Below, in pieces: positions 2,946-10,967 of a stretch of 10,967 nt of DNA. Under the pieces are notes generated by a model. The model saw nothing but the letters and a program-made list of their open reading frames with translations. It did not search any database and was not told the DNA's origin. The stretch comes from Methanobacteriota archaeon. Its GTDB lineage: Archaea > Halobacteriota > Methanomicrobia > Methanomicrobiales > Methanospirillaceae. The position numbers and the translations under genes were made by a program. The stretch covers positions 1 to 10,967 of the forward strand of contig WRER01000011.1 of the NCBI GenBank assembly GCA_009779205.1. Direction: 5' to 3'. Position 1 is the first letter of the stretch; each line of letters opens with the position of its first letter.

Positions 2946-4547
2946 TCAAAGGTATTTGGTTTTTCCTCTCTTTTTCCCGTCTTCCCGTTGCTTCTTACTG
3001 CGGGTCGTTTTCTGATATGCAATTGCAAATCGATGTGTTTCGTTGCGTATTTCTTGCAATAAGAGTGAGGCCTCAGAATCACATTTGATTGGGAGAGGAA
3101 TCTGAGATGAGATACTATAGACCTCTTCCTCTCGTTTTGCAAGACTGATCAATGGAATATCAAGTCCAAGCACGATCAATTCTTGATGAGCAGCGTTTAA
3201 TTGTCCTTTTCCTCCATCTATCACAATAAGATCCGGTAATGTCGATTCTTCTTCCAGCAATCGAGTGTATCGCCTGCGTACAAGCTCTGCAATGCCTAAG
3301 AAATCATCGATCCCTTCATAACTTTTTAACTTGTACCTTCGGTAATTCCGTTTATCTGGTTTTCCGTCCATAAATCGGACCATTGCACCAACAGTTCCAG
3401 TTCCACCTAAATGGGAGACATCAAAGCACTCAATAATGGATGGAGGTGTTGGCAAGGTAAGTGCTTCTCCAAGTGCATCTACTCTGGTAATATGTTTGAA
3501 AAAGGTAGCTCCAATGTTTTTTGAAACAAGTGAAAGCAAGCGTCGTTTATCTCCTCGCTTTGGCACAGTAATTGTTACTTTTGATCCCCGTTTATTTGAT
3601 AGATATCCTTCCATCGACTCATCTGGTTCTTCTGGCAGAATCAGCTCTTGGGGGGGAGTGTTATCTGTGTAATATTGGATCAGAAATTCATCCAAAAACT
3701 CTTCTGTTTTTTCAAACACAAATTCTTCTTTATGTGTCAGACATCCTCTCTCAACACTAAAAAGCATGAGATAGACCTGATCTGCATGGAGTGCATAATG
3801 GATAATATGTTCATCTTCTTTTGTATTTCGAAGCACGTACTGTCGCTCTGAAAGGTGCTCGATAGCTTTGATCTGATCTCGAATCTGAAGTGCTTTTTCA
3901 AATGCAAGCTCATCAGAGCATCTTTGCATATCCTCCTTCATATCTGAAAGAAGCTCGGTATTCTTTCCTTGCAGAAGCTTCTCCGCACATGTGACTTGAT
4001 ATGCATACTCCTGTTCAGAAACCCTTCCAGTACATGGTGCAGCACATGAATCAAGATGATACCGCAAGCATGGGCGCTTTCGGAGGTGTTTGCAAGACCG
4101 AAGTCTAAATGTTCTTTTTGTAAAGTGCAGAATCTGATCTCGCTCGCGGGCAGAGACGAATGGACCAAAATATGTCGACTTTGCTTTTTTTCCAGTTTGT
4201 TTTGTGTCTATTGTTCGAACAACGCTTATTTTTGGATATGAATCCCCTGACAGAGCAATGTAGGCGTATCCTTTTGAATCTTTTAAACTAATGTTGTATT
4301 CTGGCTGATGTTTCTTTATCAATGTGCTTTCAAGCAGCAAGGCTTCAACCTCGCTGGAAGTTACAATAAAATCAATATCTGAAATGTGGGCAACAAGCCG
4401 CTTCGTCTTCGAATCACGATGCGTCTTTTGAAAGTACGAAGAAACACGCCGCTTCAAATTCTTTGCTTTCCCGACATAGATTACCTCTTTATTCTCATCA
4501 AGAAAAAGATAACAGCCAGGATCATGAGGGATATCAGATAAGATCAT
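2946..4547 (-). CDS. uvrC: UvrC, nucleotide excision repair endonuclease subunit (no C-terminal HhH)
   Basis: UvrC makes both incisions around a lesion presented by UvrA/UvrB. The ATG at 4547 gives 533 residues beginning MILSDIPHDPGCYLF, as UvrC normally begins; a TTG at 4562 would add five. Domains in order: GIY-YIG nuclease (about 1-90; GCY at 11-13, YVG at 24-26, Arg33/34, Glu73 in ALLLEST) for the 3' cut; four cysteines (152, 160, 168, 172) in RSC-x7-PC-x7-SC-x3-C spacing matching the reported UvrC iron-sulphur site; a UVR helix pair near 212-232 for UvrB contact; and an RNase H-like nuclease with Asp376 (CFDVSH), Asp444 (VIDGGKGQ) and His505 (ETHRFAI) for the 5' cut. The protein stops in a basic tail soon after the nuclease, lacking the tandem helix-hairpin-helix of bacterial UvrC. 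A C7 tract on the coding strand (3650-3656) encodes TPP. No Shine-Dalgarno is visible. Confidence 0.97.
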   Translation of the reverse strand: MILSDIPHDPGCYLFLDENKEVIYVGKAKNLKRRVSSYFQKTHRDSKTKRLVAHISDIDFIVTSSEVEALLLESTLIKKHQPEYNISLKDSKGYAYIALSGDSYPKISVVRTIDTKQTGKKAKSTYFGPFVSARERDQILHFTKRTFRLRSCKHLRKRPCLRYHLDSCAAPCTGRVSEQEYAYQVTCAEKLLQGKNTELLSDMKEDMQRCSDELAFEKALQIRDQIKAIEHLSERQYVLRNTKEDEHIIHYALHADQVYLMLFSVERGCLTHKEEFVFEKTEEFLDEFLIQYYTDNTPPQELILPEEPDESMEGYLSNKRGSKVTITVPKRGDKRRLLSLVSKNIGATFFKHITRVDALGEALTLPTPPSIIECFDVSHLGGTGTVGAMVRFMDGKPDKRNYRRYKLKSYEGIDDFLGIAELVRRRYTRLLEEESTLPDLIVIDGGKGQLNAAHQELIVLGLDIPLISLAKREEEVYSISSQIPLPIKCDSEASLLLQEIRNETHRFAIAYQKTTRSKKQREDGKKRGKTKYL

Positions 4548-4552
4548 GAAAT

Positions 4553-4570
4553 CAATGCACAATGTACAAT
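4553..4570. repeat. Heptamer pair / inverted copy at the uvrC start
   Basis: On the minus strand this reads ATTGTAC ATTGTGC ATTG, two units of the (A/C)TTGTNN heptamer found in the opposite orientation at 4785-4833. TGCACAATGTACAAT at 4556-4570 is the reverse complement, with one mismatch in 15, of 4813-4827. Within it, 4553-4562 is an exact 10-base inverted copy of 4807-4816. It overlaps the alternative TTG start of uvrC and ends in the last stop of the four-helix-bundle remnant. Confidence 0.7.
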
Positions 4571-4827
4571 TATGTAATTTTTGAAGTTCTTATGATTGCA
4601 ATCAATAATCAGTTTAATTTTCCACAATCAGACCTAATACTCGAAAATTCACTCTTCTCCAAGTAATCACTTTCATATAATAATTCAAGCCAATATTCAC
4701 ACTCTACAGCTTCTTTTACGATATTCATTTTTGAAACAAATTTTTTTACTTCGTGCCTTGTACCGCATTGTTATTTGTCCCCCACTTGTTCCTTGTGCCT
4801 TGTTACTTGTGCATTGTAAATTGTGCA
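4556..4827. mobile_element. Candidate repeat-bounded element with four-helix-bundle remnant
   Basis: A 272-bp segment bounded by a 15-base inverted repeat with one mismatch (4556-4570 and 4813-4827), embedded in heptamer repeats, and enclosing the decayed four-helix-bundle gene. It sits between uvrC and the phosphorylase gene and overlaps the 3' end of the latter. No transposase, reverse transcriptase or obvious target-site duplication is visible. Calling it mobile is inference from the boundaries and the gene decay; it could equally be an old gene whose flanks were invaded by short repeats. Confidence 0.3.
4570..4770 (-). pseudogene. Four-helix-bundle (S23/IVS-like) protein gene, C-terminal remnant
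   Basis: Minus-strand frame with recognisable four-helix-bundle protein sequence (the family first known from 23S rRNA intervening sequences, also free-standing and as Avd of diversity-generating retroelements). VKKFVSKMNIVKEA, then YWLELLYESDYLEKSEF, matches the family's pattern of helix, KEA, YWLELL, then a turn. After GKLN comes an in-frame TGA (4609-4611), but the same frame continues LLIAIIRTSKIT to a TAA (4570-4572), which is how this family usually ends. The TGA therefore looks like a nonsense mutation within the old gene. The N-terminal half (first two helices) is absent: upstream the frame runs into heptamer repeats and a TAA at 4771-4773. An ATG at 4728 could still give a 39-residue peptide, but nothing suggests it is functional. 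The family call is from memory of its consensus. Confidence 0.7.
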
Positions 4828-4833
4828 CTGTGA
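4750..4833 (+). repeat. Degenerate tandem heptamer array, consensus (A/C)TTGTNN
   Basis: Seven contiguous units from 4785: CTTGTTC, CTTGTGC, CTTGTTA, CTTGTGC, ATTGTAA, ATTGTGC, ACTGTGA. Before them, less regular units occur: TTCGTGC (4750), CTTGTAC (4757), ATTGTTA (4767) and TTTGTCC (4774), with a few extra bases between. The first two positions and the last two vary while the TTGT core is kept. The array covers the stop codon and last nine codons of the phosphorylase gene and the broken 5' side of the four-helix-bundle remnant. Confidence 0.75.
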
Positions 4834-5492
4834 ATCATCTGTTGTATCATTGAATCTGTTCGGTGCTGTGTCTGTTTTGAAGAACTAATGACCTCGTCAT
4901 AGGTTGCCGTAGCGTTTTCAATTCCATTTGCATAGTTATCAACAAAACACAATGCGGCACATGGTATCTGAAGATCATTTGCAATCATGATCTCATGGGC
5001 GATAGTCATTCCAACAATGTCTCCGTACTGAGCCAGGTACCTGGTCTCATGCCTTGTTTCAAAGCGCGGCCCTTCTGTTTGAACATAGCAACCACCATAA
5101 TGTGCCATTGGAAAGAGATCTGAGAGTTTTTGTGCGAGTTCAGGTGAAATCTGAGCTGTTATGTGATTTAGAGAATGGTTATATATTGTGACATTCCCGG
5201 TTGCACAGAAATAATCAGTTGGAATTACAATGGAACCTGGCGGCAGATCTGCATGAAGAGAACCTGTAGATCCAATACAGATTATTGCATCAACTCCAAG
5301 AACAGCAAATGCAGAGATATGTGCCCTCACATTTATTTTGTGGGGGGGGGTGTGAAACTGATGTCGCTGAAGTAAGACAACCATATCAGAACACATAACT
5401 TCTGAAGATCCGTATGGCGTATGCACAATCTGTTTTGTGAGATCTGTCAAACCAGTATGGATGATAGCAGTACCGCCAATAATACCTAACAT
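4803..5492 (-). CDS. Purine nucleoside phosphorylase, MTAP/MTIP family; probable S-methyl-5'-thioinosine phosphorylase
   Basis: 229 residues, ATG at 5492. The enzyme cleaves a purine nucleoside with phosphate to free base and (methylthio)ribose-1-phosphate. Family signatures in order: LGIIGGT at the N-terminus; HxFHTPPHKINVRAHI (about 44-59); GSTGSL (74-79); TEGPRFET (139-146); VGMTIAHE with Met162; and VDNYANGI (184-191). Where human MTAP has Asp for 6-aminopurines (TDYD), this protein has Asn186. Asn at this place is typical of enzymes using 6-oxopurines (inosine, guanosine, methylthioinosine), which fits the methanogen route where methylthioadenosine is first deaminated. Product would then be hypoxanthine. 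The last codons and TAA lie inside a heptamer repeat array, and a C9 run falls in the PPH motif. There is no T-rich terminator downstream, so read-through towards uvrC is possible. Plain PNP activity cannot be excluded. Confidence 0.88.
   Translation of the reverse strand: MLGIIGGTAIIHTGLTDLTKQIVHTPYGSSEVMCSDMVVLLQRHQFHTPPHKINVRAHISAFAVLGVDAIICIGSTGSLHADLPPGSIVIPTDYFCATGNVTIYNHSLNHITAQISPELAQKLSDLFPMAHYGGCYVQTEGPRFETRHETRYLAQYGDIVGMTIAHEIMIANDLQIPCAALCFVDNYANGIENATATYDEVISSSKQTQHRTDSMIQQMIHSAQFTMHK
5342..5350 (-). repeat. Nine-base homopolymer (C9 on coding strand) inside the phosphorylase gene
   Basis: Nine G on plus, nine C on the coding strand, encoding the Thr-Pro-Pro-His of the conserved HTPPHKIN phosphate/nucleoside-site motif. 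The gene is in frame with nine bases; gain or loss of one would truncate it. Proline codons elsewhere in the window are mostly CCA, CCT or CCG, so consecutive CCC CCC is unusual. Confidence 0.85.
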
Positions 5493-5709: not shown

Positions 5710-8700
5710 ATGGGGAATGTTAGGATACTTTATGGCGCCATTTTAATGGCAGTTCTCCTAACATCGGTGTCAATTGCGTCAGTTTCAGGGGATGAAACTA
5801 TTGGCACTGATGTTATGGGATCCTTTGCCAAGCTACCTCTCGTTTTTATTGCAAATGAGGGTCAGTTGAGTGATGGCATAGCTTTTCAAACGAGTTCAGC
5901 GGATCAGGCGATCTCGCTTTTAAGTGATAGAATTGAGTATATCCATGCAGACGGATCAGCTCCTGTTTCTGTCATTTTTATGGGTGCGCAACCAAATCCA
6001 GTTATTTCTGGCTTAGATCCATTCAGTGGAACGGCCAGTTTTTTCCATGGCTCTGAACCTTCAGACTGGACAACCGGTGTAGAACTGGTTACGAAAGTCA
6101 AGTATGAGGAGTTGTACCCTGGTATTGATATGGAATTATCTGGTTCTGGAGGGATATTGAAGACGGAATTTATCGTCCACCCTGGCGCAGATCCCTCTCA
6201 GATTGCATTGCAGTATGAGGGTCAGACTGATATATACATCAGTGACGATGGCGCGCTTGTTGCTTCTACCGGCACTCGTGACATTATTGATGACACTCCA
6301 TACTCATTTCAGATTGTAGAGGAATCTGAAATTTTTGTAGAAAGTGCATATGTTCTTTCTGAGGATGCTGTCGTAACGTTCGAGCTTGGATCGTATGATC
6401 CTTCATTGACGCTTATTATCGATCCAGTCATGCGATATTCGCTCTACTTTGGTGGTCCTAACAAAGATCTTGGAAACGCCATCGCAGTTGATGACTGGGG
6501 ATATGCATACATGCTTGGGACTGCAATGTCTCGAAGCTTGAAATGGAAGCCTGAATTCAGTGTATTGAGTGCACAGGGAAATAATGCAATTGACAATAGT
6601 CGTGACGCATTTATCGTCAAGATTAATCCAGACGGAACTGAACTTGAATATCTGATCTACCTTGGAGGTTCAAGTGAAGAGGAAGGAAGTGGACTTTATC
6701 TTGATGTCGATGGAAGTGTCTACCTATGTGGTACTACCGCTTCAACAGACTTCCCTGTTGTAAATGCATTTCGCAGTTCGAATGCCGGAGGACGTGATGC
6801 ATATGTTACAAAAATAAATCCAGCAGGTACTGAGCTCATTTTCTCTACGTACCTCGGCGGTTCTGCACATGATGAAGCACTTGATCTTACCCTTGATCAG
6901 GATCGCAACATTTTGATTACCGGTTCGACCCGCTCATGGGATTTCCCAATTGTAAATCGATATGAAAAATCTCCATTTGGAGGAATGGTTGATGCATTTA
7001 TCACCAAGATGAATCCAACAGCCTCTGCAATTATCTACTCGAACTTCATCGGAGGTACTGCATATGATATTGGTCGTGCCATTGCAGTAACAGAGGGAGG
7101 ATACGCCTGTGTTGTTGGTCATACTGAGTCCAGGGACTTTCCACTTGTCAATCCATTTCAGAGTGAGAGACGCGGACATTGGAATGCATTTGTTGTAGCA
7201 TTTGATCCAGAGGGAACATATCCAGCAGCGTACTCAACATATCTTGGTGGTTCTGGAGATGAGTATGCAGAAGGTATTCTCTCCTGGCCGAATGGTGATA
7301 TTACTGTCGTTGGTAAAACCAACTCAAGGGATTATCCAATTCACAATGCAATTCAGCCATATCGTGCAGGTTTATGGGATGGTTTCATCACCACGTTCAG
7401 TCCGGGAGGTCATTCCCTTGTTCAGAGTACCTACTTTGGAGGCACTGGAAACGAGGCAATAAATGGCATCGCTCGTGATGGAGACGGTAATGTGTACGTT
7501 GTTGGAACAACGAACTCAAGAGATTTCCCAGTCGTCAATGCTTACCAGTCTCGACTAGGTGGTGCATCCGATGCCTTCGTCACAAAGTTTGACCGTGCTA
7601 TCAGCACAGTTGTGTATTCCACTTTTCTTGGAGGTAGTGGAAACGATGAAGGTCGTGCTATTGCGGTAACGACGGAAGGAGATGCGTATGTTACTGGATA
7701 TACTGAATCTAAGAACTTCCCTCAAGTCTGGCCCTTCCAGCAGAACTTTGGTGATGGTAACAATGATGCGTTTGTCTCCGTTATTTCAGATAATGCCTAT
7801 ATACCACTGCCAGAGTTTGTAGGCGTTCCAACAAATGGCGAAGCTCCACTTACTGTTCAGTTTACTGACCTTTCACGTGGTATTCCAACTGCATGGCTGT
7901 GGAACTTCGGTGACGGTGCAACCTCAACTGAGCGCGATCCACTGTATGTGTACACTACTCCGGGAACGTACACCGTGAGCCTCCAGGTCTCAAATATTGT
8001 GTCAAAACAGACTCTGACAAAAGAAAATTACATAATTGTACGTGAACCTGTTCAACCACCAATTGCTGACTTCAAGGGTGTACCTCAGTCAGGGGTCGTT
8101 CCACTGGTCGTCTCATTTACTGACTTGAGTCTTAATCAGCCAACCTCTTGGTCTTGGGACTTTGGTGATGGTGCGACTTCAACTGAGCAGAATCCAAAGT
8201 ACACGTACACTACACCTGGAATCTATACCGTAGCATTAACAGTAACGAACTCAGCAGGAATTGATACTGCAATTAAAGAGCAGTTTGTGACAGCTGAACC
8301 TGATGTTATTGCTCCAATTGCTGATTTCAATGCAAATCCTCGCTCTGGTGTAGTTCCATTAACTGTTAAGTTTGCTGATCTCTCCCGTAATGACCCAACC
8401 TCCTGGTCTTGGGACTTCGGCGATGGCGGCACATCTACGCAGCAGCATCCAACGTACAAATATACTGCACCTGGAACCTACACGGTTATGCTGACCGTGC
8501 AGAACAAGGCTGGAATCGATACTGCAATTAAAGAGCAGTTTGTGACAGCCGAATCTGGTGTTCTCGCTCCAATTGCCGATTTCAATGCAGATCCACGTAT
8601 TGGAAAGGTTCCTCTGGGCGTAACATTCATTGATCTCTCCCGTAATGACCCAACTTCCTGGTCTTGGAACTTCGGTGATGGTGGCACATCCACAGAGCAG

Positions 8701-10967
8701 AATCCATTCTATACTTATCTCCAACCAGGCAGATACACGGTAAGCCTTACGGTTGCAAATGAAGCTGGAATCGATACTGCAACTAAAGAGCAGTTTGTGA
8801 TTACCGAACCTGGTGTTCTTGCTCCAGTTGCTGATTTCAATGCAAATCCTCGCTCTGGTGCAGTTCCATTAACTGTTAAGTTTGCTGATCTCTCCCGTAA
8901 TGGTCCAACTTCCTGGTCTTGGGACTTCGGTGATGGCGGCACATCTACGCAGCAGCATCCAACGTATACATATACTGCACCTGGAACCTACACGGTTATG
9001 TTGACCGTGCAGAACGAAGCTGGAATCGATACTGCAATGAAACAGCAGTTTGTGACGGTAGAACCTGGTGTTCTCGCTCCAATTGCCGATTTCAATGCAA
9101 ATCCACGCATTGGAAAGGTTCCTCTGGGTGTAACATTCACTGATCTCTCCCGTAATGGTCCAACCTCCTGGTCTTGGGACTTCGGTGATGGCAGCACATC
9201 TACGCAGCAGCATCCAACGTACACATACACTGCACCTGGAACCTACACAGTTATGCTGACCGTGCAGAACAAGGCTGGAATCGATACTGCAATGAAACAG
9301 CAGTTTGTGACTGTAGAACCTGGTGTTCTCGCTCCAATTGCCGATTTCAATGCAAATCCTCGCTCTGGCATAGCTCCATTAACTGTTAAGTTTGCTGATC
9401 TCTCCCGCAATGCTCCAACCTCTTGGTCTTGGGACTTCGGTGATGGCGGCACATCCTCGCAGCAGCATCCAACGTACACATACACTGCTCCTGGAACGTA
9501 CTCAGTTATGCTGACTGTACAGAACCAGGCTGGCATCGATACTGCAATGAAACAGCAGTTTGTTACTGTAAACAAAGCAGGTCATGCACCAACAGCTCAA
9601 TTCCGTGCTGCACCGACAACAGGAACAGCTCCGTTACATGTTGCATTTACCGATCTCTCCACAGGTGATCCAATCTCCTGGTCTTGGACATTTGGTGATG
9701 GTGCAACCTCTGTCGAACGTCACCCTGAACATGTGTATACTGCTCCTGGAACATACACCATTACACTTATTGCAAGAAATGAATTCGGTGAATCTGTTGC
9801 ACAGCGTGAGAATTACATAACAGTACGTCCGGATCTGCCTGATCTGAAAGCTTCCTTTATAGGAGAGCCAACGACAGGCATGGCGCCATTGACAGTTCGA
9901 TTCACTGATCTGTCTGTAGGACAGCCAAAAGCGTGGCAATGGAACTTCGGCGATGGTGCTACATCAACTGAACAAAATCCTGTGCATACCTATCGCGAAC
10001 CAGGCAGTTATACAGTATATTTGACTGTGACACGTGATGATGCACGTGATGTTACTGCAAAGTTCAATTACATTATTGTCAACAAAAAGCCAGAGATACA
10101 AGTTGATTTCTCTGCATACCCAACTAGTGGCGATGTTCCACTGTGTGTGCAGTTTACTGATCTCTCAACTGGTGATATCACTACGTGGGAATGGAGCTTT
10201 GGGGATGGCGTAACTTCACGTGATCGAAACCCAAGTCACACCTACCTTGAAGCTGGGGAGTACACCGTTTGTTTAACAGCCAGCAATGCGCACGAAAGCA
10301 AGCAACAATGCAAGCCAAACTTTGTTCATGTTACTGGCTCCAAGCTTCCTGCGGAGTTCTATGGAACTGTCACTATCGGTGATGAACTTGCTCCTGTTGG
10401 AACACTGATCCTTGCCAGAGGACCTGGTGTTGTGACTGATGTTGAAGGAAATCCTGTCACCCTTACTACTCCGGGTTGCTTTGGAACAATCTTCCCTTTG
10501 ACAGTGTATGGTTCGATCCAAAATGGTGATCCCGTCACATTCTGGGTAAAAACTCCTGACATGATTGATTATGTAGAGGCTGAAGTCTGGGATGTGTATG
10601 GTGGTAACCAGTGGCAGAAATCCTATCCATTCTATGGCGGCACAAGAACTCGTATTGATTTGCGTGTTGGTGGCAATCCAATCCCACCAAGGCCACCTCT
10701 TCCTCATGAGTTCTATGGTGAGGTAACCTACAATGGGCAGCCACTTCCACAAGGGTCAATGGTGCTTGTGAAGGGACAGAATGTACTTGAAGGACGACCC
10801 GGAAATCCCCTGCCTGTTACCTCTACCGGATTTTACGGCATGAGTGGAGAATCGAAACTTATTGCACAAGGAGATCTTGAAACCGGTGACGAACTTACAT
10901 TCTGGATAGTGCTTCCTGGAACTGCAGTACCAATATCAGCACAATGTCGCAATGTTGATGCGAACTC
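5710..10967 (+). CDS. Giant secreted surface protein: SBBP beta-propeller plus ten PKD domains (3' end outside window)
   Basis: One open frame of 1752 codons to the right edge. Residues 1 to about 27 are a signal peptide (basic start, hydrophobic core, SIASVSG). Residues about 43-240 match the domain that precedes SBBP repeats in this class: LPLVFIANEGQ, then LYPGID, FIVHPGADPSQI and LIIDPVMRYS. Residues 242-693 hold seven SBBP units of about 64 residues, each built as TxSxDFPxxNxxQ, DAFVTK, then YSTYLGG, enough for a closed seven-bladed propeller. Residues 698-1543 are ten PKD domains of 85 residues with the WSWDFGDG and PGTYTVxLTV signatures. From 1546 two copies of another 118-residue domain begin (FYGxVT, then G-D-x-x-TFW). 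Such proteins act in cell surfaces or adhesion; the ligand is unknown. A sorting or anchoring signal would lie beyond the window. It is divergent from the phosphorylase gene and has its own promoter. Confidence 0.93.
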   Translation, partial: MGNVRILYGAILMAVLLTSVSIASVSGDETIGTDVMGSFAKLPLVFIANEGQLSDGIAFQTSSADQAISLLSDRIEYIHADGSAPVSVIFMGAQPNPVISGLDPFSGTASFFHGSEPSDWTTGVELVTKVKYEELYPGIDMELSGSGGILKTEFIVHPGADPSQIALQYEGQTDIYISDDGALVASTGTRDIIDDTPYSFQIVEESEIFVESAYVLSEDAVVTFELGSYDPSLTLIIDPVMRYSLYFGGPNKDLGNAIAVDDWGYAYMLGTAMSRSLKWKPEFSVLSAQGNNAIDNSRDAFIVKINPDGTELEYLIYLGGSSEEEGSGLYLDVDGSVYLCGTTASTDFPVVNAFRSSNAGGRDAYVTKINPAGTELIFSTYLGGSAHDEALDLTLDQDRNILITGSTRSWDFPIVNRYEKSPFGGMVDAFITKMNPTASAIIYSNFIGGTAYDIGRAIAVTEGGYACVVGHTESRDFPLVNPFQSERRGHWNAFVVAFDPEGTYPAAYSTYLGGSGDEYAEGILSWPNGDITVVGKTNSRDYPIHNAIQPYRAGLWDGFITTFSPGGHSLVQSTYFGGTGNEAINGIARDGDGNVYVVGTTNSRDFPVVNAYQSRLGGASDAFVTKFDRAISTVVYSTFLGGSGNDEGRAIAVTTEGDAYVTGYTESKNFPQVWPFQQNFGDGNNDAFVSVISDNAYIPLPEFVGVPTNGEAPLTVQFTDLSRGIPTAWLWNFGDGATSTERDPLYVYTTPGTYTVSLQVSNIVSKQTLTKENYIIVREPVQPPIADFKGVPQSGVVPLVVSFTDLSLNQPTSWSWDFGDGATSTEQNPKYTYTTPGIYTVALTVTNSAGIDTAIKEQFVTAEPDVIAPIADFNANPRSGVVPLTVKFADLSRNDPTSWSWDFGDGGTSTQQHPTYKYTAPGTYTVMLTVQNKAGIDTAIKEQFVTAESGVLAPIADFNADPRIGKVPLGVTFIDLSRNDPTSWSWNFGDGGTSTEQNPFYTYLQPGRYTVSLTVANEAGIDTATKEQFVITEPGVLAPVADFNANPRSGAVPLTVKFADLSRNGPTSWSWDFGDGGTSTQQHPTYTYTAPGTYTVMLTVQNEAGIDTAMKQQFVTVEPGVLAPIADFNANPRIGKVPLGVTFTDLSRNGPTSWSWDFGDGSTSTQQHPTYTYTAPGTYTVMLTVQNKAGIDTAMKQQFVTVEPGVLAPIADFNANPRSGIAPLTVKFADLSRNAPTSWSWDFGDGGTSSQQHPTYTYTAPGTYSVMLTVQNQAGIDTAMKQQFVTVNKAGHAPTAQFRAAPTTGTAPLHVAFTDLSTGDPISWSWTFGDGATSVERHPEHVYTAPGTYTITLIARNEFGESVAQRENYITVRPDLPDLKASFIGEPTTGMAPLTVRFTDLSVGQPKAWQWNFGDGATSTEQNPVHTYREPGSYTVYLTVTRDDARDVTAKFNYIIVNKKPEIQVDFSAYPTSGDVPLCVQFTDLSTGDITTWEWSFGDGVTSRDRNPSHTYLEAGEYTVCLTASNAHESKQQCKPNFVHVTGSKLPAEFYGTVTIGDELAPVGTLILARGPGVVTDVEGNPVTLTTPGCFGTIFPLTVYGSIQNGDPVTFWVKTPDMIDYVEAEVWDVYGGNQWQKSYPFYGGTRTRIDLRVGGNPIPPRPPLPHEFYGEVTYNGQPLPQGSMVLVKGQNVLEGRPGNPLPVTSTGFYGMSGESKLIAQGDLETGDELTFWIVLPGTAVPISAQCRNVDAN
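7801..10338 (+). repeat. Ten tandem PKD-coding repeats with 255-bp period
   Basis: Units begin at 7801, 8056, 8311, 8566, 8821, 9076, 9331, 9586 and 9841, every step exactly 255 bp (85 codons); the tenth begins 252 bp later at about 10093. Units 3, 5 and 7 share RSGxxPLTVKFADLS, while units 4 and 6 share RIGKVPLGVTF, giving an alternating pattern with a 510-bp super-period. Units 3-7 are very similar in DNA sequence; units 1, 2, 8, 9 and 10 have diverged. Each unit carries the FGDG signature of PKD. Confidence 0.92.
10345..10967 (+). repeat. Tandem 118-residue C-terminal domain, two copies visible
   Basis: Copy one starts at 10345 (LPAEFYGTVTIGDELAPVG), copy two at 10699 (LPHEFYGEVTYNGQPLPQG), exactly 354 bp apart. 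Both continue with a glycine-rich turn (PGCFG / TGFYG) and GDPVTFWV / GDELTFWI. A proline-rich linker (PIPPRPPLP) joins them. I know similar beta-rich domains from surface proteins of Methanomicrobiales but cannot name a family with certainty. Copy two is cut by the edge. Confidence 0.7.

Follow-up and report, generated by a model that had tools for sequence, protein, structure and literature searches.

A decayed four-helix-bundle gene between inverted heptamer arrays as a probable copy of a small mobile S23 unit

The nearest parallel to the present locus that we found in print is the intervening sequence (IVS) in the 23S rRNA gene of Coxiella burnetii. According to the available excerpts of its description (PMC4990558), this IVS is 428 nt long, has terminal inverted repeats that pair, and contains an S23p ORF that is read in the same sense as the transcript, with tandem GACAGAT heptamers, in two or three sets depending on the strain, located just upstream of the start codon. 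Cutting by RNase III was shown in vitro, and the authors termed the sequence selfish and cited older ideas of a transposon (same excerpts). Heptamers have also been described elsewhere, such as TAACTGA (excerpts of PMC4679880) and the arrays of GGGAATC, of which two Xanthomonas genomes contain 186 and 183, including 70 and 75 convergent pairs, generally without a link to mobile elements in the excerpted text (PMC4692102). The Xanthomonas arrays and the Nostoc GGGGA(C/T)T arrays are G-rich 7-mers that are dispersed, mostly intergenic and in many cases convergent, like the arms described below, but in the same excerpts they are tied to no gene family or insertion (PMC4692102). The terms "S23" and "xcc0516" are absent from the main text of PMC4692102. 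An S23 protein of X. campestris, XCC0516, has a solved structure (2gsc).

Small inverted-repeat units with gene-less copies dispersed between genes are furthermore known as MITEs and REP/BIME units, which are mobilised in trans, are not known to carry a conserved gene and have ends that are common to the whole family. The pentamers of S23 and of Avd, a protein of the diversity-generating retroelements (DGRs), are alike. Avd is a four-helix-bundle protein that is related to S23, as stated in excerpts of PMC10053308. In the open-licence PMC literature, which does not include preprints, our searches brought up no account in which free-standing S23 genes and heptamer arms are treated as an element, and among the papers available in excerpts, S23 and heptamers were joined only in the one on Coxiella (PMC4990558).

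The window, by which we mean the whole stretch of 10,967 nucleotides that was analysed, is a contig (C11) of an incomplete genome (G000; 62% complete, 1.25 Mb, 252 contigs). The feature studied here is very probably a copy, now dead, of a small mobile "S23 unit" that was inserted between genes, as judged from sequence comparisons. The locus contains the following features:

4548..4836, minus strand: the whole extra stretch, a putative decayed unit in which the S23 remnant has a heptamer arm on each side, delimited by blastn against the locus in the sister genome (L003 in G001)
4768..4833, minus strand: 5' arm, made up of ACAANNN heptamers in tandem on the minus strand (TTGTNNN on the plus strand), from the lag-7 score and the comparison of protein ends with the sister
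4600..4758, minus strand: remnant of a four-helix-bundle (S23, 23S_rRNA_IVP) gene, of which the C-terminal half is left, with a TGA inside, from PF05635 and TIGR02436
4553..4570, minus strand: 3' arm, two oppositely oriented heptamers (TTGTNNN on the minus strand) complementary to the 5' arm, from the inverted match and weak when taken alone
4803..5492, minus strand: upstream neighbour, a phosphorylase gene, whose 3' end the 5' arm has overwritten, from homology to the sister
2946..4547, minus strand: downstream neighbour, uvrC, on the same strand as the S23 remnant, from tblastn, with the name taken from a preliminary description and the sequence

The remnant matched profile positions 52-105 of the 106 positions in PF05635 with 29.4 bits (E 8e-7), which is below the Pfam cut-off of 33.8. 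However, the score of the same piece, with an X at the stop, against TIGR02436 ("four helix bundle protein") was 32.1 bits, which is above the cut-off of 24 and places it in the S23 / 23S_rRNA_IVP / TIGR02436 family by the TIGR02436 cut-off. The remnant has one TGA inside and lacks the 5' half of the gene. The lag-7 score of the 5' block was 19 at 4785-4832, the maximum when the window was tiled at 120 bp (99th percentile of the tiles 9), and TTGTNNNTTGT is unique to this block within the window, with six starts from 4768 to 4814. The 3' block is weak, with two ACAANNN units at 4559 and a lag-7 score of 9, and ACAANNNACAA recurs once, at 4942. The inverted match between the 2 blocks was 14, which ranked first among 355 placements with this geometry, but narrowly; the runners-up scored 13 and 12, both overlapping the 5' block, and 12 elsewhere. 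The preliminary description, made from the window alone, had reported a decayed four-helix-bundle gene between opposed heptamer blocks, and profiles, lag-7 score and inverted match confirmed it at the coordinates given, with a weak 3' block.

The same description had suggested that the junction between uvrC and the phosphorylase gene be compared in relatives, and in the sister species it is indeed empty. The only other genome from the same genus (G001) contains the phosphorylase gene and uvrC side by side, with 81-82% identity in DNA, and only 60 bp separate the matched stretches, as compared to about 289 in the window. The blastn homology of the phosphorylase gene stops at about position 4837, and that of uvrC starts at 4547. 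A comparison of the protein ends with the sister indicated that the last phosphorylase codons in the window have been replaced by the 5' array. The phosphorylase, which we take to be MTAP-like, was encoded in 36 of the 37 genomes searched (its own included), and its amino acid identity to the sister is 81%, while residues 1-478 of UvrC matched the sister locus with 84.6% (tblastn). Among 61 genomes of the order that were searched, PF05635 matches were identified in the window's own genome only. It was also noted that the phosphorylase gene contains a run of nine Gs (C on the coding strand) at 5342-5350, also present in the sister, which is a possible frame-slip site, and that a very large open frame at 5710-10965, with many PKD-like repeats by eye, runs off the contig and probably encodes a surface protein.

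The window repeat was also found elsewhere in its genome. With at most 2 mismatches, ACAANNNACAANNNACAANNNACAA was identified 26 times in G000, versus 3 times for the backwards control; the total in 25 relatives of the family was 27, versus 48 for the control. Fourteen other contigs of G000 contain matches to this pattern, and ten of these loci were inspected. Eight were convincing by eye, while 2 (L290 and L297) look like chance. Four of the eight are convergent pairs without room for a gene (L282, L286, L295 and L300), and the remaining four are one-sided or nearly so (one-sided in L292, L293 and L298). A further PF05635 match besides the window remnant was not found in G000. Four of the eight gene-less loci (L286, L293, L295 and L299) are clearly absent from the sister, which has a single ACAATG seed at the site of L293; the comparison was ambiguous at L292, and at L282, L298 and L300 only one flank or no collinear flanks were found in the sister. 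The gene-less loci, several of which are absent in the sister, suggest that the window repeat has spread in its own lineage, mostly without the gene.

An intact S23 unit is normally about 400-480 bp long and consists of a 5' tandem array, one S23 (four-helix-bundle) gene and a 3' array that is the reverse complement of the first, with a repeat that is mostly a G-rich 7-mer, sometimes an 8-mer and rarely a 6-mer. To describe the flanks of S23 genes in general, we used a set of 80 loci from named genomes (the named set), the best 80 of at least 590 matches, which favours canonical S23. Three loci with less than 100 bp on one side (L120, L149 and L172) were dropped, resulting in a total of 77 loci, and the flanks of 150 other ORFs at the same loci served as controls. 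Arrays, called at a lag-7 score of at least 12 that also exceeded the other lags, were identified upstream of the S23 gene at 42 loci, downstream at 51, on both sides at 39 and on either side at 54, whereas the corresponding numbers for the 150 control ORFs were 12 upstream, 18 downstream and 3 on both sides. For the inverted score, the 5' flank was compared with the reverse complement of the 3' flank and the best ungapped match was taken; its median was 21 at S23 genes, as compared to 10 in direct orientation and 9 each for the control ORFs and for shuffled partners.

The preliminary description had proposed to test whether inverted heptamers flank most S23 copies. This holds, with inverted scores of at least 15 at 62 of the 77 loci versus 8 of the 150 control ORFs (Fisher 4e-32). 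The outcome that would have spoken against the unit, S23 genes without heptamer flanks, was seen in part, in that 15 of the 77 copies scored below 15, but the majority is flanked. The S23 loci without clear arms, about a fifth, are possibly decayed or domesticated. The repeat unit was mostly a 7-mer, with an 8-mer in about seven loci and a 6-mer in one locus of a second set described below. On the coding strand, the 5' arm is G-rich (41 array calls versus 10) and the 3' arm is C-rich (54 versus 4), as counted over calls at lags 7 and 8, such that one flank may count twice. Other periods were also seen: in the 3' flank of L164, the S23 gene is followed by a tandem unit of 15 bases instead of heptamers, and periods of 14 to 16 bases scored best in L121, L126 and L145.

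Array and inverted match occurred together at 56 of the 77 loci, which include Acidobacteriota, Bacteroidota, Cyanobacteria, Chloroflexota, Alpha- and Betaproteobacteria, Bacillota, Planctomycetota, Ignavibacteriota, Desulfobacterota, Fibrobacterota, Verrucomicrobia, Nitrospirota and archaea. Clear cases of bracketed S23 genes are thus present in at least a dozen phylum-level groups. With group labels assigned by hand from record titles and unlisted loci counted as Bacteroidota, the numbers were 23 of 39 in Bacteroidota and 0 of 1 for the single loci from Cloacimonadota and SAR324. The S23 genes in the named set shared the strand with the upstream neighbour in 60 of 68 cases, with the downstream neighbour in 47 of 59, with both in 41 of 56 and with neither in 2 of 56. 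Since the neighbours of the control ORFs were also mostly on the same strand (54 of 67), operon architecture explains part of this bias. No S23 match was obtained in 50,697 phage records, and 29 S23 loci were located in viral contigs.

The second set consisted of 30 of the 60 S23 matches from 12 named genomes (1 to 11 matches per genome), and 12 of the 30 loci are also in the first set. The arms of the same element matched with a median score of 18, as compared to 9 when the arms were taken from different elements within one genome (99th percentile 15 over 50 ordered pairs) and 9 when they were from different genomes. Because the arms of other elements match at background level, the match reflects neither a genome-wide repeat, which we reject as its cause, nor a conserved end sequence. 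Similar values were obtained for 53 elements from Methanophagales, retained from 74 segments by score and flank length: their own arms had a median score of 16 (25th percentile 12) versus 9 for shuffled arms, and 45 of the 53 contained 7/8-mer arrays in either flank. When S23 genes located at different sites, meaning that no match of the flanking DNA was seen in the available sequence, were at least 85% identical, the arms were shared (score at least 15) in 46 of 55 pairs. The corresponding numbers were 30 of 38 at 70-85% identity, 36 of 128 at 60-70%, and 17 of 400 sampled pairs below 60%, a sample of about 6%; the pairs are not independent and many are from one clade. Close S23 copies at different sites thus mostly share the repeat, suggesting that gene and arrays travel together. 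As these comparisons show, the repeat is private to each element, and common to both arms and to close relatives.

Within the phylum, S23 matches were identified in 39 of 392 genomes, 33 of which belong to one family, Methanophagales (f10), where a genome has at most 8 matches and many of the matches are fragments. Inspection of 30 Methanophagales loci by eye indicated that most of the genes are located between a 7-mer array and its reverse complement, and that the 7-mer differs per element. The intact Methanophagales copies are under purifying selection, with dN/dS values below 0.5 in 90 of 90 pairs of at least 75% identity and a median of 0.12. It was also noted that the S23 gene in L054 is interrupted by a sequence that starts near CCATGGGTGTTCG and has GGCTTAACCGAACAC near its other end (by eye); a similar sequence precedes the S23 gene in L061 and is probably a separate small inverted-repeat element.

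One junction, next to the tfb gene, could be followed across Methanophagales. The gene adjacent to tfb was found in 46 of the 51 genomes searched, and 30 loci were read. S23 is present in ten of these, with the direction in four (L184, L193, L204 and L206) reversed relative to the other six, some of the copies being internally deleted and two cut by the contig end. Short scars are present in L189, L190 and L203, and in L207, where no tfb is in view, and L205 contains a gene-less pair of a different repeat. Eleven loci have unrelated spacers (L195-L200, L202 and L208-L211), and L188 and L201 add nothing. Another gene-less inverted repeat, of the CCAAATCC / GGATTTGG type, is located in L185 and L186 at this junction used by S23 units. 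The tfb junction seems to be a repeated target. Opposite orientations at one site were also observed for L034/L039 and L081/L086, and the simplest reading of both orientations would be an inversion between the arms, or re-insertion. Compared across loci, the units apparently invert, lose the gene and decay.

Occupied and empty sites were also compared on plasmids of cyanobacteria, where S23 units are located inside operons, including a conjugation operon, and where inverted arms were seen by eye at all eight loci inspected (two of which represent one site). In Trichormus variabilis 0441 and ATCC 29413 and in Scytonema NIES-4073, a unit is located between 2 genes. The same 2 genes are separated by 13 bp, and both the arrays and the S23 gene are missing, in Fremyella NIES-3275, Nostoc linckia, Aulosira laxa, N. 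carneum and Tolypothrix 7712. The downstream gene at these five empty sites is 96-97% identical in DNA to that in Trichormus, and the upstream protein has one accession in common between Trichormus and Tolypothrix 7712. The same site is occupied by a truncated copy in Nostoc C052 and by a gene-less pair in Brasilonema. The three paralogous operons of Nostoc ATCC 53789 have the order A|S23|B-C on pNsp_a and A-B|S23|C on pNsp_c, with no S23 on pNsp_b; a gene-less pair is also present on pNsp_c. The clean empty sites imply that the arrays arrive with the unit, and the alternative that the arrays are pre-existing landing sites was rejected on the basis of the five sites that have neither array nor gene.

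The junctions were duplicated over 5 bp (GTAAT) at the Trichormus site. Of the two sites in ATCC 53789, one has a duplication of 3 bp and the other one of 5 bp if a one-base indel is allowed, whereas the fourth site (Aulosira versus Calothrix) showed a small replacement instead of a duplication. The four plasmid junctions thus differ, and a target duplication of fixed length was not seen among them. Units were also identified inside cas operons, between cas6 and cas4 on a plasmid in Anabaena 90 (L342) and between cas10 and a Cmr3-family gene on a plasmid in Picosynechococcus PCC 7003 (L345), for which the related plasmid in PCC 7002 has no unit. A "four helix bundle protein" encoded near cas genes therefore need not be a CRISPR component.

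As the comparisons show, gene and arrays are present or absent together, as one insert between genes that is mostly in the direction of the operon. The relatives were represented by one genome per species, and movement is deduced from comparison. The idea that the gene and its heptamer flanks form a small dispersed unit, put forward in the preliminary description, agrees with the shared arms at new sites, the private repeats and the clean empty sites. Its counterpart, that arrays might occur without any S23 gene, stands to the extent that gene-less pairs exist, but not at the clean empty sites, which hold no arrays.

Several other explanations were weighed against the S23 unit. It is very improbable that the arrays are ordinary slippage repeats (SSRs) in spacers, where S23 genes merely sit. 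Heptameric SSRs are reported to be over-represented in many bacterial genomes (excerpts of PMC4692102), and the one-sided arrays in L292, L293 and L298, together with the single seed in the sister at L293, would fit such an origin. However, slippage at one place cannot give a private inverted repeat that is common to both arms, it is contradicted by the five clean empty sites, and 238 of 312 7/8-mer arrays were located within 400 bp of an S23 match, that is, in 177 of 730 kb of sequence mostly from loci fetched for S23. Outside of S23 flanks, we identified no arrays in 200 kb of the S23-free G003 or in 101 kb from 28 Methanomicrobiales loci, but 4 per 200 kb, CT-rich, in the S23-free Methanophagales genome G116, as compared to 5 per 170 kb in the S23-rich G251; the latter comparison speaks against a simple correlation at the genome level. 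That the inverted heptamer pairs are themselves a MITE-like mobile element with S23 as a caught passenger gene is unlikely, but can be argued from the gene-less pairs in the window genome, in L205, on pNsp_c of ATCC 53789 and in Brasilonema, of which L205, with its other repeat, shows that arrays need no local S23 gene, and from the 70 and 75 convergent GGGAATC pairs in Xanthomonas (excerpts of PMC4692102). On the other hand, closely related S23 genes have retained their repeat at new sites, selection on S23 is purifying, and the gene-less pair at site 3, which is used by full units in relatives, fits an internal deletion; this explanation was judged on loci fetched for S23.

It is quite unlikely that S23 is a gene of the host or plasmid, such as a regulator, an operon accessory or a phase switch, with the arms serving as an mRNA hairpin or an invertible switch. 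The dN/dS value of 0.12, the codirectional location in operons, including those for cas and conjugation, and both orientations at one site would suit such a role, and a benefit of S23 to the host is possible. However, S23 is patchy on plasmids with nearly identical neighbours, is present as many fragments in Methanophagales and was matched by PF05635 in only 1 of the 61 genomes of the window's order, the window's own, while the neighbouring genes varied among the loci listed and the repeat is not conserved between elements. Retrotransposition of the unit in trans by a resident reverse transcriptase, in a DGR-like manner with S23 acting as Avd, is similarly improbable. Avd and PF05635 are likely homologous in structure (excerpts of PMC10053308), and the sense-strand bias and the insertion into rRNA would suit an RNA step, but units are also found antisense at one site, and no RT, TR or VR is known with S23 units. 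RVT_1 was absent from 9 of 13 genomes, including the window genome, which is 62% complete, and eight of the nine carry 4 to 11 S23 matches.

The S23 unit also differs from other known elements. Its arms are terminal inverted repeats, as in MITEs and insertion sequences, but the ends are private arrays of 6-8-mers, and no constant target duplication was seen. The Y1 transposase of IS200/IS605 elements and RAYT-REP systems (Y1_Tnp) was absent from 7 of the 13 genomes, and both RVT_1 and Y1_Tnp were absent from 5, namely the window's incomplete genome and G409, G416, G418 and G420, with 4 to 7 S23 matches. For movement in trans by another enzyme, which the preliminary description considered possible, the existence of carriers without either enzyme indicates that neither is a general partner, and a reverse transcriptase or Y1 transposase in this role was unsupported in the 13 genomes examined. 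Taken as a whole, the S23 unit and its insertion are likely to be the best explanation of the data.

Pairing rather than sequence seems to be kept, since the repeat changes freely while the arms stay complementary. The complementarity could either be selected, if a hairpin is recognised, or be the mechanical product of template switching. We tentatively suggest, as a possibility that is less likely than not, that a hairpin formed by the arrays is recognised by S23 and that host enzymes assist. The S23 pentamer may bind the array hairpin on single-stranded RNA or DNA, recognising it by its pairing and not by its sequence, and insertion may be aided by host enzymes for replication or repair. Template switching from arm to arm would keep both arms alike while the repeat drifts, and gene-less pairs could spread like MITEs. 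The IVS in 23S rRNA would then be an S23 unit that landed in an rRNA gene and is excised from the RNA by RNase III.

The IVS has the same anatomy as the S23 unit, according to the excerpted Coxiella paper (PMC4990558), and is most simply explained as an S23 unit that landed in 23S; rRNA IVSs are thus probably a special landing place of the unit. An S23 ORF between complementary ends, as in the IVS, was identified at 62 of the 77 loci, and the window had an inverted score of 14. In contrast to IVSs, S23 units are located between protein genes; that of the window is not in a 23S rRNA gene but between the phosphorylase gene and uvrC. Private heptamers in both arms generally, gene-less derivatives, inversions and empty sites are features of S23 units that are not in the excerpted IVS account (PMC4990558). 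An exact-motif check for five specific 23S motifs in loci L032-L281, of which 180 were fetched for S23, found none, so that the link to IVSs rests on the excerpts of the Coxiella paper (PMC4990558).

On balance, we lean towards the view that the free-standing S23 genes of bacteria and archaea represent the coding portion of minimal mobile elements that form a class of their own. These elements would have no transposase or fixed ends but private inverted heptamer arrays that matter by their pairing, and the class would include the rRNA IVSs, the dispersed heptamers in Xanthomonas, Nostoc and others and perhaps the ancestry of the DGR Avd. The S23 unit offers an answer to the question of what many of the free-standing genes annotated as "four helix bundle protein" are, as well as to the over-representation of heptamer repeats in bacteria and the origin of the intervening sequences in 23S rRNA. 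As occupied and empty sites are known exactly on plasmids of cultivable cyanobacteria, both the movement and the role of the protein are directly testable. An element with paired arms but a changing repeat would represent an unusual kind of end recognition.
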